Source: Gammaproteobacteria bacterium RIFCSPHIGHO2_12_FULL_63_22
GTDB taxonomy: Bacteria; Pseudomonadota; Gammaproteobacteria; Xanthomonadales; Xanthomonadaceae
Direction: 5' to 3'
Assembly (NCBI GenBank): GCA_001801685.1
Contig: MGYJ01000005.1
Coordinates: forward strand, 1-64,000
DNA length: 64,000 nucleotides
This document shows, one piece after another, positions 14,842-22,021 of this stretch. The notes beneath the pieces were generated by a model. It searched no databases. It worked only from the letters and a program-made list of their open reading frames with translations, and was not told where the DNA came from. Position numbers and translations under genes: made by a program. Numbering within the stretch: the stretch's first letter is position 1; each line of letters begins with the position of its first letter.

Positions 14842-15756
14842 TCAGTTATTGGCCAGGGCGCTGCGGTAGCGATCGGCGAGCTGGCCCACGCGCTGCACAT
14901 AGCGCTGGGTTTCCGAATACGGGGGCACGCCGCCGTTGCGGTCGACCGCGCCCTCGCCGGCGTTGTACGCCGCGGCGACCAGGGTCAGGTTGGAGCTGTA
15001 GCGCTTCATCAGCCAGGCCAGGTATTTAACGCCGCCGCTGATGTTCTGTGCTGGATCGAACGGATCCGACACGCCAAAACGCGAGGCCGTGGCCGGAATC
15101 AATTGCATCAGGCCCTGGGCGCCGGCATGTGAAATGGCGTTCGGCCGGTACGCGGATTCGGCATGGATGATGGCCCGGACGATGTATTCGTCCACGCCGA
15201 ACCGGCTTGCCGCGTCACGAATCTCGCTGCTGTAGGCCGAGGTGTTTAGCCGGACCGAGCCAAAGTTCACGTTGGCCATCAGGCCGCAGGCGTAGCAGGT
15301 TTCCACATAGCTGAAGAGCAACTTGGACTGTGCCGCGCCGCGCGGGCGCACATTCGTATAGTGGGTGACGCCGTCGCGCTCGAAGCGATAGACCGCGCCG
15401 CGAAGGACCCGGGTTCCCCCGCCCGCCTTCGGCGCCTTGGCAGGCGCGGCCGCATCCGAAGTACTGAACACCACTTGCTTGGTGGCGCCGGCAGAAGCGG
15501 CTGTCGTGGACGCGCCGGTATCGACGGCAGGTGTCGCGACCGGTACGGGTTTGGCCGGCGGGGCCTTGCTGGCCGACGACCTGGAAACGCGGCCGGCGCC
15601 AGCGCCGGTGGACATGGCCTTGCACACCGCATTGCTGACGCGCTTGCTGCTGTAGTTGGGGATTCCGTCAGCACCCACGCAGCGATAAAGCGTACCCGCC
15701 GCCGCGGGTGCGGCGAACATCAGTCCCGTCAGCATCAGTACAGCTAGCTTCCCCAT
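14842..15756 (-). CDS. Secreted lytic transglycosylase (DUF4124 + SLT)
   Basis: 304-residue periplasmic peptidoglycan-cleaving enzyme. A signal peptide (about 1-20) leads into a DUF4124-like segment ([17 protein letters not shown]). A low-complexity Ala/Pro linker follows, then a C-terminal SLT goslin-type domain (about 185-300). The catalytic Glu sits in [27 protein letters not shown] and [12 protein letters not shown] are the other family blocks. It would cut the MurNAc-GlcNAc bond, forming 1,6-anhydro ends. A second [16 protein letters not shown] block in the linker resembles a second DUF4124. Divergent from miaB. Confidence 0.9.
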
Positions 15757-15834
15757 GGCCGGAGTCTCCCCCCTTCCTTCATAAATTCCAAGTACTTAGG
15801 TCACGAAATTGTGGCCCCGGCCGGGCCCGGACCC

Positions 15835-15840
15835 TACAAT
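15835..15840 (+). promoter_or_regulatory. Putative -10 box for miaB
   Basis: TACAAT 30 bases before the miaB ATG. The nearest TTG-type -35 (TTGTGG) is 20 bases upstream, longer than optimal. Confidence 0.35.
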
Positions 15841-15869
15841 GGCGACTTATCCCGACCGGAATAAGCGCC

Positions 15870-17279
15870 ATGACCGGGAAACCCGTCGTTTCCAACCCGC
15901 CCGAGGCGGGGACCGCAACCGTTGCCCGCGCAACGGCCGGCAAGCTGTATATCAAGACCCAGGGTTGCCAGATGAACGTGTACGACTCGGCCCGCATGGC
16001 CGACGTGCTGGCGGCCGAGCACGGCCTGGAACTGACCCAGGACGAGACCGAAGCCGACGTCATCCTGATCAACACCTGTTCGATCCGCGAGAAGGCCCAG
16101 GAAAAAGTCTTCTCGCAACTGGGCCGCTGGAAGTCGCTGAAGGCCGGCCGCGAGTCGGTGATCATCGGCGTCGGCGGCTGCGTCGCCTCGCAGGAAGGCG
16201 AGTCGCTGTTGAAGCGCGCCCCCTACGTGGACCTGGTGTTCGGCCCGCAGACCCTGCATCGCCTGCCCGACATGATCGAGGCACGGCGCAGTTCCGGAAA
16301 GGCGCAGGTGGACGTGAGTTTCCCGGAGATCGAAAAGTTCGATCGCCTGCCGGAACCGCGCGCGGAAGGACCAACCGCCTTCGTGTCGATCATGGAAGGC
16401 TGTTCGAAGTATTGCTCGTTCTGCGTGGTGCCCTATACGCGTGGCGAGGAAGTGTCGCGACCGTTTGACGACGTGCTTGTAGAGGTTGCGCAACTGGCGG
16501 CGCAGGGCGTGCGCGAAGTGAACCTGCTGGGCCAGAACGTCAACGCCTATCGTGGCGCGATGTTCGAGTCGGACGAATTCGCCGACCTCGCCCTGCTGAT
16601 CCGCGCCATCGCGCGCATCCAGGGCATCGGCCGCATCCGCTACACCACCTCGCACCCGCTGGAATTCAGCGACTCGCTGATCGAGGCGCATCGCGACGTG
16701 CCGGAATTGGCCAGCTACCTGCACCTGCCCGTGCAGTCGGGCTCCGATCGCATCCTGCAGGCCATGAAGCGCAACCACACCGCGATCGAGTACAAGGCCA
16801 AGCTGCGCCGCTTGCGCGAGGCCAAACCCGGCATCTGCATCAGTTCCGATTTCATCGTCGGCTTCCCGGGCGAAACCGACCAGGACTTCGAGGCAACGAT
16901 GAAGCTCATCGCCGACGTCGGCTTCGACCAGAGTTTTTCCTTCATCTACTCGCGCCGCCCAGGCACGCCTGCCGCCAGCCTGCCCGACGACACGACGGAC
17001 ACAACGAAGTCGGAGCGACTCAAGCGCTTGCAGGCGGTGCTGAACCAGAATGCGCGCGACATCGCGCAGGCCATGGTTGGCACCGTGCAACGCGTGCTGG
17101 TGGAGAAGACCAGCACGCGCGATCCAGGCGAATTCACCGGCCGCACGGAAAACATGCGCTACGTCAATTTTGCCGGCCATCCGCGGATGATCGGACAATT
17201 CGTGGACGTGCTGATTACCGAGGTGATGGCCAACTCGCTGCGCGGACGCGTGCAGGTTGCCGACGAAGTCGCGGCTTGA
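15870..17279 (+). CDS. miaB: tRNA-2-methylthio-N6-isopentenyladenosine synthase MiaB
   Basis: 469-residue radical-SAM methylthiotransferase that modifies A37 of tRNAs reading UNN codons. The N-terminal UPF0004 domain holds three Fe-S cysteines ([24 protein letters not shown]). The radical-SAM CxxxCxxC is CSKYCSFC, and a C-terminal TRAM domain ends near RVQVADE. The frame is open upstream, but ATG 15870 gives the family N-terminus. Head of the miaB-phoH-ybeY-corC cluster; as a two-cluster enzyme it is a client of the Suf system encoded at 45-50 kb. Confidence 0.96.
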
Positions 17280-17309: not shown

Positions 17310-18299
17310 ATGAGCACGCCGACGATCCATCGCGACTTCACCCTGCAACCCGACGATGCGGAACGCCTGGCCAACCTGGCCGGGCCGTTCGACGAACACC
17401 TGCGGCAGATCGAGTCGCGCCTGGGCGTGGAAATCGCCAACCGCGCCAATGTATTCCGCGTCACCGGCGCGGACGAAGCGGCGCGTTCCACCGAAAGCCT
17501 ATTGCGCAGCTTGTACGAAGACGCCGGCTCCGAACCGCTCGACCCGCAGAAGATCCACTTGCGCATGAACGCCGCCAACGTGGCGCGCCTGCGCGACGCG
17601 AAGCGCGACGACTACGAGCCCCAGGAAATCAGCATCAAGGTCAAGCGCGGCTACGTGAAGGGCCGCGGCGACAATCAGGTGAAGTACCTGCACGCCATCG
17701 CCACGCACGACATCAACTTCGGCATCGGCCCCGCCGGCACGGGCAAGACCTTCCTGGCGGTCGCCAGCGCGGTCGAGGCCTTGAACGAATCGCGCGTGCA
17801 GCGCCTGCTGCTGGTGCGGCCCGCGGTGGAGGCTGGCGAAAAACTCGGCTTCCTGCCGGGCGATCTGTCGCAAAAGGTCGATCCCTACCTGCGCCCGCTC
17901 TACGACGCCCTGTTCGAAATGCTCGGCGTCGAGAAAGTGGCCAAGCTGATCGAACGCCAGGTCATCGAGATCGCCCCGTTGGCCTATATGCGCGGCCGCA
18001 CGCTGAACGATGCCTACGTCATCCTGGACGAGGCGCAGAACACCACCATCGAGCAGATGAAAATGTTCCTGACCCGCATCGGTTATGGCTCGACCGCCGT
18101 CATCACCGGCGACCTGTCCCAGGTGGACCTGCCCAAGCACCAGAAGTCGGGCCTGAACGATGCCCTGGATGTCTTGCGTGGGGTGGCCGGCATCAGCTTC
18201 ACCTTCTTCACCGCCCGGGACGTGGTCCGCCACCCGCTGGTGGCCCGGATCGTCGAGGCCTACGACGCACGCGATGGTCGCCTGGACCACGAAAGCTGA
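17310..18299 (+). CDS. ybeZ: PhoH family protein (YbeZ)
   Basis: 329-residue PhoH-like P-loop NTPase. Walker A is GPAGTGKT, Walker B is VILDEAQN, and [11 protein letters not shown] follows. An N-terminal KH-like region lies at about 10-75. YbeZ works with YbeY in rRNA/ribosome quality control in E. coli. It starts 30 bases after miaB and ends 14 bases before ybeY. Confidence 0.94.
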
Positions 18300-18313: not shown

Positions 18314-18796
18314 ATGACCCGTGGCCCGATCCAGTTGGACGTGAGCGTCAGTTACGGATTGCCGCGCACCGGCATTCCCTCCGCCAGCAGCTTCAAGCGC
18401 TGGGCGGCGGCGGCCTGCGAGGGCCGCATCATGAAGGCCGACCTGGCCATCCGCGTGGTGGACAGCAAGGAAGGCCTGTCCCTCAACCGCCACTATCGCG
18501 GCAAGGACAAGCCGACCAACGTGCTCAGCTTCCCCGCCGAACTGCCTGAAGGCGTGGACATGCCCATGCCCCTGCTGGGCGACCTGGTCATCTGTGCACC
18601 GGTAGTCGAACGCGAAGCACAGGAACAAGGCAAGCCACTGAACGCCCACTACGCGCACCTGACCGTGCACGGCGTGCTGCACTTGCTGGGGCTCGACCAC
18701 GAGGATGTGCGCGAGGCCGAGGCGATGGAACTGCTCGAGCGCGAGATCCTGGCCGGACTGGGCTACGAGGACCCGTACGGCGACGAAGACGAATAG
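18314..18796 (+). CDS. ybeY: Endoribonuclease YbeY
   Basis: 160-residue metal-dependent single-strand endoribonuclease for 16S rRNA 3'-end maturation and ribosome quality control. The zinc motif H-G-x-L-H-L-x-G-x-D-H is complete ([11 protein letters not shown]), and KPTNVLSFP is the other family hallmark. Lies 14 bases after ybeZ in the conserved order. Confidence 0.96.
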
Positions 18797-18878: not shown

Positions 18879-19727
18879 ATGTCCGAAGAACCAGACAGTC
18901 ACCCGCCGGAACGCCGCTCATGGCTCGAACGCCTGAGCCTGGCGTTTTCCGGCGAACCGCAAACGCGTGAGGACCTCATCGAGATCCTGCGCGACGCCCA
19001 GGACAACGGACTGATCGGTGGCGACACGTTGAAGATGCTCGAAGGCGCCCTGGCGGTGTCCGAGCTGCAAGTCGGCGACATCATGCTGCCGCGATCGCAA
19101 ATGGTTTCCCTCCCCGCCGACGCTGAATTCATGGACCTGATGAAGCTGGTCGTGGAATCGGGCCACTCGCGCTTCCCGGTGCACGGCGACGACAAGGACG
19201 ACATCCTCGGCATCCTGCTCGCGAAAGACCTCTTGCGCGGCATCGTCGCCGATGGCGGTCCCGGCCAGGTGCGCGAATTGTTGCGCCCCGCCGTGCTGAT
19301 CCCCGAATCCAAGCGCCTGAACGTCTTGCTGAAGGAATTCCGCCTGTCGCGCAACCACATGGCCATCGTGGTGGATGAACATGGCGGCGTTGCCGGCCTG
19401 GTCACCATCGAGGACGTGCTGGAACAGATCGTCGGCCAGATCGACGATGAACACGACGAAGCCGAAGAAAGCACGCTGATCTCCGCCCAACCCGACGGCC
19501 AGTTCGCCGTGGATGCGTTGACGCCGATCAGCGACTTCAATGAACAATTCGGCGCCGACTTCCCCGATGACGAATACGACACCGTCGGCGGCCTTGTCAC
19601 CTCGGCCATCGGCCACCTGCCCGAGGCCGGTGAGGAACTCGCCCTCGGACGCTTCCACTTCCGCGTCGGTCGCGCCGACCGGCGCCGGGTGCAGAGCTTC
19701 GTGGTCAGCGTCAATGCCGCCGAATAG
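18879..19727 (+). CDS. corC: HlyC/CorC family protein (YbeX), CBS pair
   Basis: 282-residue cytoplasmic protein with a short N-terminal region, two CBS domains (about 65-190; DIMLPRSQMVSL, VEDEHGG-like VVDEHGGVAGLVTIED) and a C-terminal CorC/HlyC transporter-associated domain (about 205-280). In E. coli YbeX/CorC has been linked to Mg/Co efflux through CorA and more recently to ribosome metabolism. The 3' end overlaps the next gene by 14 bases. Confidence 0.93.
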   Translation: MSEEPDSHPPERRSWLERLSLAFSGEPQTREDLIEILRDAQDNGLIGGDTLKMLEGALAVSELQVGDIMLPRSQMVSLPADAEFMDLMKLVVESGHSRFPVHGDDKDDILGILLAKDLLRGIVADGGPGQVRELLRPAVLIPESKRLNVLLKEFRLSRNHMAIVVDEHGGVAGLVTIEDVLEQIVGQIDDEHDEAEESTLISAQPDGQFAVDALTPISDFNEQFGADFPDDEYDTVGGLVTSAIGHLPEAGEELALGRFHFRVGRADRRRVQSFVVSVNAAE

Positions 19728-20979
19728 GCGATCCGGCTCAAGCTGGCTTCAGGTCCTGTCGCTGCTGCTGGCCCTCGCTTGGGCCGGCATCGCCGCGGCC
19801 GCTCCCGCGCAGGTGCCCGCGGGTCCCACTGATGCCGCCACTGCGGCTGCCGCCGCCACCGTCGGCAGCACGCCCTTCGGCGTCGATCCGCCGCGCATCG
19901 GCGTGGTCACGATGGAACCGGGCAATGAATTCTGGGAACGCTTCGGGCACGACGCGATCGTGGTGGAGGACGGCGACGCCGTCTCCTACAACTTCGGCTT
20001 CTTCGACATGTCCGAGCCGGGCTTCGTGCGCAACTTCATCCGCGGCCACATGCGCTATTACCTGGTCGCATTGCCGCTGGCCCGGGACCTCGCAAGCTAT
20101 CGGGAGGAAGGCCGCGGCGTCACCGTGCAATGGCTGGACCTCGATCCGTCCCAGGCACGCGAACTCGCGCAGGCGCTGGCGTTCAACGCCCGTCCCGAAA
20201 ACGCCCGCTATCGCTACGACTATTACGCCGACAACTGCTCCACCCGCGTGCGCGATGCGCTCGACCGCGCCTTGGGTGGCGAAATCCGCAATCAGCTGAC
20301 CGGCCGCTCGCAAGGCAACACCTATCGCAGCGAATCGGTGCGCCTGGCCTGGCCTGCGAAATGGATGGCGTTCGGATTCCACCTGGGCATGTCCGGCTAC
20401 GGCGACCGACCGCTGTCGCGCTGGGAAGAAGCCTTCATCCCGATGCGTTTGCGCGATTCATTGCGCGAAGTCCGTCGCAGCGACGGACGGCCGCTGGTGT
20501 CGTCGGAACAAGTCCTGTTGCCGCACAAGCTGAAGCTGCCTCCTGACGAGATGCCTCGCTGGAAGACGATCGCGCTGTTCGCCGGCCTGGCTGCCGCCTT
20601 GGCGACTGCCTGGCTTGGCCGGCGCCGGCCGCGACTGGTTGCCGCGTTGGCCATGCCGTATTGGCTGGTCAGCGGCGTCGCCGGCGCAGTGATGTTGTAC
20701 CTGTGGGCCGCCACCGCGCATGTCGCGGGCCATGGCAACGAAAACATCCTCGTGCTCAGCCCGCTGTGCCTGTTGCTGCTGGCCGGTGCTTGGCAGGTCG
20801 TGCGCGGACGCGCGGCGCCGCGCTGGTTCCGGATCCTGCTGTGGGTGGTCGCGGCCAGTGCAGCCATTGCCGGCTTCCTGAAGTTCCTGCCCTTCCGGCC
20901 GCAGGAAAACGTCGAGTGGGTGCTGTTGTTCCTGCCGATGCACCTGGCTCTGGCGCGGACATTCGACCCCAAGCGCTGA
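19714..20979 (+). CDS. DUF4105 / Lnb-type membrane protein, candidate lipoprotein N-acyltransferase
   Basis: 421 residues. A signal/anchor helix (about 12-32) precedes a periplasmic DUF4105 domain (the domain called Lnb N-terminal). Its two conserved blocks are GNEFWERFGHDAIVVED, with the invariant His, and RYDYYADNCSTRVRD, with the invariant Cys. The C-terminal half has about five hydrophobic helices, with GHGNENILVLSPLCL between the second and third, as in the Lnb transmembrane domain. Lnb of Bacteroides N-acylates lipoproteins; DUF4105 proteins elsewhere are uncharacterised. The gene overlaps corC and occupies the place of lnt in the usual miaB-ybeZ-ybeY-ybeX-lnt cluster. The domain call is firm; the acyltransferase role is inference from domain and position. 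Confidence 0.75.
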   Translation: MPPNRRSGSSWLQVLSLLLALAWAGIAAAAPAQVPAGPTDAATAAAAATVGSTPFGVDPPRIGVVTMEPGNEFWERFGHDAIVVEDGDAVSYNFGFFDMSEPGFVRNFIRGHMRYYLVALPLARDLASYREEGRGVTVQWLDLDPSQARELAQALAFNARPENARYRYDYYADNCSTRVRDALDRALGGEIRNQLTGRSQGNTYRSESVRLAWPAKWMAFGFHLGMSGYGDRPLSRWEEAFIPMRLRDSLREVRRSDGRPLVSSEQVLLPHKLKLPPDEMPRWKTIALFAGLAAALATAWLGRRRPRLVAALAMPYWLVSGVAGAVMLYLWAATAHVAGHGNENILVLSPLCLLLLAGAWQVVRGRAAPRWFRILLWVVAASAAIAGFLKFLPFRPQENVEWVLLFLPMHLALARTFDPKR

Positions 20980-20986
20980 ATCACGG

Positions 20987-22021
20987 ATGATGCGCGGCAT
21001 GGATAGCCCAGCCAGCACGACACCCGATCCAGACGAAATGCCCAGCTCGATGGTCCGCAACCTGGCGTCCTATTCCGTGGACGGAACCAGGCTGGCGGAC
21101 ATCTCGCTGGAAGAGATCAGCGATGCGCTGGCATCGAAGGAAACCGGCTTCGTCTGGGTCGGCCTGTACCGGCCCGACGAACCCCTGCTGCTGAAGATGC
21201 AGGAAGAATTCGGCCTGCATCCGCTGGCGGTGGAAGATGCGCTGAAGGCGCACCAGCGCCCGAAGGTCGAACTCTACGGCGACTCGCTGTTCCTGGTGCT
21301 GCAGACCGCGCAGGTGGTGAAGGGGCACATCGAATTCGGCGAGACGCATGTCTTCATCGGCCCGCGCTACCTGCTGACCGTTCGCCACGGCGCGTCATTG
21401 CCCTTCACCCCTGCACGCGAACGCTGCGAGCGCAACACCACGCTGATGCAACTCGGGCCGAGCTACGGACTGTATGCGGTGCTCGACGCGGTGGTGGACA
21501 ACTACTTCCCGATCGTCGAGGAGTTCAAGGACGAATTGAACGAGCTCGAGAAGGACATCTTCGCCGAGGACTATCGCCGCGAGACCATCCATCGCCTGTA
21601 CGAACTCAAGCGCGACCTTACCCAGATGCGGCTTGCCGTGTCGCCCATGCTGGACATGCTCAACCAGCTGGTGCAGTTGTATCCAACACTGATCCGGGAC
21701 GAAGTTCGCGTGTACCTGCGCGACGTGCACGACCATGTGGTGCGCGTGAACGAGGCCACCGACACCATGCGTGAGATGCTGACGGCAGCGATGTCGGTCA
21801 ACGTGTCACTGGTGACCGTGGCCCAGGGCGAAATCGTCAAGCGGCTGGCCGGCTGGGCGGCATTGCTCGCCGCGCCGACTTTGCTCACCAGTTGGTACGG
21901 CATGAACTTCGAACACATGCCCGAGCTTGGCGGCCGTTACAGCTATTGGGTCGTGATCGCCATGACCTTGGCGATCTGCCTCGGCCTTTACCGCTTGTTG
22001 CGCAAGGCTCGCTGGCTCTAG
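20987..22021 (+). CDS. corA: CorA family magnesium/cobalt transporter
   Basis: 344-residue inner-membrane Mg2+ channel. A large N-terminal cytoplasmic domain with long helices precedes two C-terminal helices. The selectivity motif YGMNF (about 304-308) lies in the loop between them, and a basic C-terminal tail reads RLLRKARWL. Three in-frame ATGs (20987, 20990, 20999) are possible starts. It begins 7 bases after the Lnb-like gene and is probably in the same operon as corC, its proposed partner. Confidence 0.94.
   Translation: MMRGMDSPASTTPDPDEMPSSMVRNLASYSVDGTRLADISLEEISDALASKETGFVWVGLYRPDEPLLLKMQEEFGLHPLAVEDALKAHQRPKVELYGDSLFLVLQTAQVVKGHIEFGETHVFIGPRYLLTVRHGASLPFTPARERCERNTTLMQLGPSYGLYAVLDAVVDNYFPIVEEFKDELNELEKDIFAEDYRRETIHRLYELKRDLTQMRLAVSPMLDMLNQLVQLYPTLIRDEVRVYLRDVHDHVVRVNEATDTMREMLTAAMSVNVSLVTVAQGEIVKRLAGWAALLAAPTLLTSWYGMNFEHMPELGGRYSYWVVIAMTLAICLGLYRLLRKARWL

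Follow-up and report, generated by a model that had tools for sequence, protein, structure and literature searches.

In Proteobacteria, triacylation of lipoproteins is usually equated with the N-acyltransferase Lnt, an essential protein in Escherichia coli. The gene order in E. coli K-12 is miaB-ybeZ-ybeY-ybeX(corC)-lnt. Here we describe a gene that occupies the slot of lnt in a 64,000-nucleotide stretch of DNA (the window; positions 1 to 64,000 of contig MGYJ01000005.1, assembly GCA_001801685.1) from an Arenimonas-like member of the Xanthomonadales. The gene encodes a relative of Lnb, the lipoprotein N-acyltransferase of Bacteroides (Armbruster et al., PNAS 2024, as presented in the available portions of PMC12994826, PMC11694511 and PMC13103446). 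We give a probability of roughly 85% to the reading that it is a Lnb-type lipoprotein N-acyltransferase which, in nearly all Xanthomonadales, has taken over the operon slot and the role of Lnt; this reading is supported by the distribution of the gene, its slot, its domains and a structure model. The gene itself, its domains, its conserved His and Cys, its predicted fold, its slot and its complementary distribution with lnt were established by computation.

The available text of PMC12994826 (2026), which cites the Bacteroides Lnb work, reports three genomic contexts in which Lnt has repeatedly displaced DUF4105 proteins, and describes the DUF4105 clade as mainly Bacteroides. The locus described here has in common with that account the general exchange of places between Lnt and DUF4105, and one of the three contexts may be the corC slot; as far as it is available, the main text of that paper makes no mention of Xanthomonas, Xylella, Lysobacter, Gammaproteobacteria, corC or YbeY, and Stenotrophomonas occurs only in a reference title. 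According to the accessible part of PMC10368991 (2023), Lnt was not found in Xanthomonas campestris B100 and diacyl anchors were inferred and modelled, while Table 1 of PMC7828034, in the portion available, counts lnt among the universal genes that Xylella fastidiosa, X. vasicola and X. albilineans lack. No paper among the matches listed, in the text available for each, linked the Xanthomonadales to Lnb or named the slot gene as the answer to the missing Lnt. What we take to be newly described is a one-for-one replacement at the gammaproteobacterial lnt slot that extends across the order, together with the prediction of triacylation.

Domains, conserved residues and predicted fold

As the first-pass annotation had pointed out, the cluster miaB-ybeZ-ybeY-corC normally continues with lnt, as it does in E. 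coli K-12, and the gene found here in its place overlaps corC (18879..19727) by 14 bases. Its open reading frame (ORF) runs on the + strand from an ATG at 19714 to a stop codon at 20977-20979 and encodes 421 amino acids; the interval given earlier, 18879-20979, comprises corC and the Lnb-type gene together. The gene is intact and conserved, which rules out a remnant or misread ORF. It looks native to its genome, judged by its best matches: the top-scoring record, at 64% over residues 14-421, belongs to Arenimonas oryziterrae, and further Arenimonas entries stand near the top of the matches.

The slot protein carries PF13387 Lnb_N, the current Pfam name of DUF4105, at 71 bits (cut-off 22.2); this periplasmic domain covers residues 62-192 (19897..20289, like all features of the gene on the + strand). 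The C-terminus matched PF25221 5TMH_Lnb at 39.3 bits (cut-off 25.2), a match that spans residues 292-388 within a five-helix membrane domain defined by Pfam and the structure model (residues 284-416, 20563..20961). An N-terminal hydrophobic helix of residues 8-28 (19735..19797), present in the model and as a hydropathy peak of 2.03, may be a signal peptide or an anchor. The sole NCBIfam match was the Lnb equivalog model NF051878 (156.3 bits, E 1e-45, model positions 27-368 of 394); because the score is far under the equivalog cut-off of 550, we filed the protein as a Lnb-type relative rather than a Lnb equivalog. All 30 aligned slot proteins, the window's included, matched this model and no other. 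By these matches, the slot protein is a divergent relative of Bacteroides Lnb along its length, with which it shares Lnb_N, 5TMH_Lnb and the conserved His and Cys; it differs in its score (156 vs 550 bits), its source in Gammaproteobacteria and its corC slot, and its enzyme activity is a prediction. With Lnt (TIGR00546) it would share the reaction and does share the genomic slot after corC, but the fold is different, and neither LNT_N, CN_hydrolase nor TIGR00546 was detected in the slot protein by Pfam and NCBIfam scans at E 0.001.

The motif RFGHDA occupies residues 76-81 and DNCSTR residues 173-178. His79 (codon 19948..19950), the predicted catalytic base, and Cys175 (20236..20238), the predicted acyl-thioester nucleophile, were invariant in three alignments: 30/30 proteins including the window's, 81/81 (80 named loci plus the window, a set that partly overlaps the first) and 40/40 from distant families. 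Within the 30-protein alignment these predicted active-site residues were unchanged in proteins down to 25% identity. In the C-terminal domain, Asn342 and Pro350 were invariant in all three alignments, and His336 was found in 30/30, 81/81 and 38/40. No relative was found when viral_contigs was scanned for Lnb sequences of greater divergence.

A structure model of the slot protein (pLDDT, predicted local distance difference test, 90.5) placed the C-terminal helices at residues 284-304, 306-333, 344-363 (broken), 370-390 and 401-416; of these five segments a plain hydropathy scan missed two, picking up the other three and the N-terminal helix. In a second look with VIA-align, the catalytic domain most resembled YiiX and TseH, both permuted NlpC/P60 proteins, and the model predicts that it has a permuted NlpC/P60 superfamily fold. 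A sequence search of the PDB with the slot protein returned one chance match (E 0.84). The likeness to the permuted NlpC/P60 group (E. coli YiiX, TseH, LRAT/H-REV107) does not extend to the five-helix domain, the matched chains covering residues 56-273 only; the substrates of that group differ as well. The annotation's description of a DUF4105 domain with invariant His and Cys, a five-helix C-terminus and the general build of Lnb was therefore borne out, the Lnb transmembrane part at the level of the Pfam domain and the likeness to Lnb along the length of a model whose cut-off the protein misses.

Complementary distribution of the Lnb-type gene and lnt

We searched 150 Xanthomonadales genomes, each at least 90% complete, with a profile built from slot proteins of the order (A1) and with models for lnt. 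A1 matched 147 of the 150 at E 0.001 or better. The three genomes without a match (G041, G051 and G053) are exactly the three that carry a canonical lnt (298-305 bits). If the two genes were unrelated and the genomes independent, the chance of this coincidence would be about 1 in 550,000, and kinship among the genomes makes the true figure much less extreme. Sixteen of the other 147 genomes contain a weaker lnt-family protein over the cut-off (147-209 bits), and 121 have none at E 1e-20. The paired searches, here and in the phylum sample below, were assumed to cover the same genomes; the listed labels agree, but not every genome or match is listed.

Among 249 genomes of the phylum, a strong A1 match occurred in 8, all of them in this order, and 2 more gave weak partial matches (24-28 bits). 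In 243 of the 249 genomes lnt was over the cut-off, by count all 241 without a strong A1 match plus G000 (the window's host) and G047. A canonical lnt and the Lnb-type gene never occur together in the order or phylum sample. An lnt search of 14 genomes behind the named loci (the best 80 of 563) left 11 without a match at E 1e-10, including A. oryziterrae, X. hortorum, X. arboricola, X. albilineans and S. maltophilia SJTL3, and A. metalli, A. caeni and L. tabacisoli had only a 191-200-bit lnt form; the Xanthomonas checked for lnt were species other than X. campestris B100. Genes for the two preceding pathway steps were found as well, lgt and lspA each being over the cut-off in 20 of 21 genomes, this genome included.

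In an earlier set of relatives, PF13387 was found in 56 of 61 genomes, the exceptions being G041, G051, G053, G007 and G015. Seven of the 61 (G009, G027, G029, G032, G036, G038 and G049) have one or two additional DUF4105 proteins, scoring up to 174 bits, and Lnb_N alone was rejected as a mark of Lnb. At those loci of the additional proteins that were examined (L003-L009, L066, L067, L069, L071, L075), phmmer found nothing similar to the slot protein or corC. Three marks were therefore used for identification: the slot, the five-helix part and a match to the full-length profile.

The slot is conserved well beyond the window. The Lnb-type gene adjoins corC downstream and on the same strand in 30/30 genomes, a count made on 32 rows (two rows repeat a genome already counted) drawn from the 56 genomes with a PF13387 match. 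A recount by open frames flagged only L010, L068 and L072, because their frames extend upstream into corC; the match positions are adjacent. All 80 named loci, which include Xanthomonas, Stenotrophomonas, Lysobacter, Luteimonas, Pseudoxanthomonas and Arenimonas, have the Lnb-type gene after corC, and corA follows it in 77. For 40 genomes hand-picked from distant families among the 147, adjacency to corC was counted in 33 by script and 34 by eye, the script having been misled at L177 by a weak second CorC match. At L187-L189, 0.9-1.3 kb separates corC from the Lnb-type gene, and corC was not found in the stretch examined at L190, L202 (which starts at a contig end) and L208. Chance placement is therefore excluded.

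In all three genomes that lack the Lnb-type gene, the canonical lnt also adjoins a corC. The corC of the pair G041 and G051 (f6) belongs to the type native to the order (322-327 bits, compared with 251 for the E. coli corC). The placement of f6 inside the order in a corC tree has a support of only 81/82, so gain and loss may have run in either direction. This pair illustrates lnt within the order better than G053, which was dropped for that purpose: the miaB, ybeZ, ybeY and corC of G053 are less similar to those of the window than the E. coli genes are, and in the tree its corC stands apart from the rest (45% of columns filled). This foreign kind of cluster points to a transferred cluster or a misplaced genome (loci L034/L064).

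Points against replacement and the long Lnt-like protein

Several observations weigh against the replacement of Lnt. The NCBIfam equivalog cut-off is missed by a wide margin, and the likeness to Lnb is seen at the level of family models. A plain Foldseek search gave no significant PDB match (best E 0.076), leaving the match to YiiX and TseH to VIA-align. A1 derives from proteins of this order and is biased toward them, and more distant Lnb-type proteins elsewhere were possibly missed; PF25221 alone, which is independent of A1, matches 132 of the 150 order genomes, 117 of them over the cut-off. The incomplete genomes G007 (85%) and G015 (74%) show neither PF13387 nor an lnt over the cut-off. 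In addition to the 16 of 150 order genomes with a non-canonical lnt over the cut-off, 10 more match at 82-106 bits, under it. Finally, the genome that carries the window itself has an lnt-family protein, at C6:28252-29472, with 178-181 bits against an NCBIfam lnt cut-off of 132.9.

This last protein was found by the genome-wide check for lnt that the first-pass annotation had proposed, and the notion that the genome has no Lnt-like protein is false. The suggestion that the Lnb-type gene replaces Lnt is strongly supported by the distribution across the order, where the three genomes without it are the three with a canonical lnt, but the C6 protein leaves its status as the sole enzyme unproven in this genome. 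The C6 protein, of a type scattered patchily over the order, is divergent and 810 amino acids long, with LNT_N and CN_hydrolase domains over their Pfam cut-offs and a C-terminal part of approximately 330 residues without a Pfam match. In this genome it could serve as a second N-acyltransferase. A further match on C88 (20.2 bits) was rejected as Lnt; it sits in a 349-amino-acid ORF that by eye resembles an ordinary nitrilase-type protein.

The C6 protein might even be the working Lnt of the organism, with the Lnb-type gene as a backup or in another role. In line with this, it retains the equivalents of E. coli Lnt E267, K335, C387, E343 and N314 besides both Lnt domains and a score over the cut-off. 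At the positions of W237, Y388 and E389, which we take to be essential in E. coli Lnt, it has R, L and D, and all 18 long forms examined (L053 was omitted from this residue check) have L and D at 388/389 and none has W at 237. W237 carries little weight as a mark: in that alignment it is also absent from one of the three canonical lnt, that of G053. The 16 genomes with a non-canonical lnt over the cut-off all have the Lnb-type gene too, so the long form replaces it nowhere in the order sample. In 18/18 loci the long gene lies away from corC, beside the same 236-amino-acid gene and the same hydrolase gene, much like a dedicated cassette. We regard the C6 protein as very unlikely to be the working Lnt; it looks like an extra enzyme with a cassette of its own. 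Within this cassette the hydrolase has a GDSL match just under the Pfam cut-off (23.0 vs 23.6), and the 236-amino-acid protein has no Pfam match. The three genes of the cassette lie in this genome at L062:8185-12655 (contig C6, approximately 27.2-31.7 kb). A third Lnt-like type of approximately 500 amino acids (165-180 bits) was seen at L053 (G005) and L081 (G018:C35:13388-14569); it is distinct from the long form and well under canonical lnt scores, and the G018 example is a second copy.

Proposed function, remaining alternatives and gene neighborhood

Under the replacement reading, Lgt would add the diacylglyceryl group to the lipoprotein and LspA would then cut off the signal peptide. The Lnb-type protein, a predicted N-acyltransferase on the evidence of its domains and model, would take an acyl chain from a phospholipid donor onto Cys175 as a thioester and hand it to the free amine of the diacylglyceryl-cysteine of the lipoprotein acceptor, giving the triacyl form.

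The presence of the gene in relatives of X. campestris predicts triacyl anchors, against the diacyl inference in the available text of PMC10368991. It is conceivable, conversely, that the order makes only diacylated lipoproteins and that the slot gene encodes a papain-like lipid hydrolase, or an acyltransferase with another substrate. Consistent with this, Lnt was not found in strain B100, where diacyl anchors were modelled, the relatives by fold comprise effectors and hydrolases besides acyltransferases (PMC12994826, in its accessible part), and the slot protein misses the NCBIfam Lnb cut-off. That argument, as far as the text of PMC10368991 goes, considers Lnt only, and the one-for-one exchange with lnt in the slot, with 30/30 proteins matching the Lnb model, is hard to square with an unrelated substrate; we therefore think this alternative quite improbable. 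That the shared slot is a mere relic of operon history, with Lnt lost for other reasons, would fit a gene cluster that is conserved anyway, but we give it hardly any credence since canonical lnt and the Lnb-type gene never co-occur in either sample and the active-site residues are invariant down to 25% identity.

If the replacement of Lnt by the Lnb-type protein is true, a whole order that includes major crop and hospital bacteria uses an enzyme unrelated to Lnt. This would account for the absence of lnt recorded for Xylella fastidiosa, X. vasicola and X. albilineans (PMC7828034, portion available) and for the assumption of diacyl anchors in X. campestris (PMC10368991, portion available), and it warns that a missing lnt need not imply diacylated lipoproteins. 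The maturation route in these bacteria would become directly testable, with related genomes offering either gene in the same slot. A more elaborate history is possible, though we hold it only tentatively: the ancestor of nearly all Xanthomonadales would have swapped Lnt for a papain-like Lnb in the slot, the lipoproteins of Xanthomonas, Stenotrophomonas and Lysobacter would be triacylated by a non-Lnt enzyme, contrary to the published diacyl inference, and the long Lnt-like protein, relieved of its housekeeping role, would have been co-opted in the three-gene cassette, with the GDSL-like hydrolase and the 236-amino-acid protein, for acylation of a dedicated substrate.

The G000 assembly is larger than those of 26 genomes of its genus (4.26 Mb vs at most 3.3 Mb) and has two lspA matches (C61 and C78), so some of its contigs may be foreign. 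All neighbors of the Lnb-type gene lie on the + strand. Upstream are miaB (15708..17279, start codon uncertain; 652.6 bits to E. coli miaB), the PhoH-like ybeZ (17310..18299; 407.6 bits to E. coli ybeZ), ybeY (18314..18796, identified by Pfam YbeY) and, directly adjoining, corC with its CBS and CorC_HlyC domains (Pfam). The next gene downstream is corA (20987..22021, Pfam CorA).
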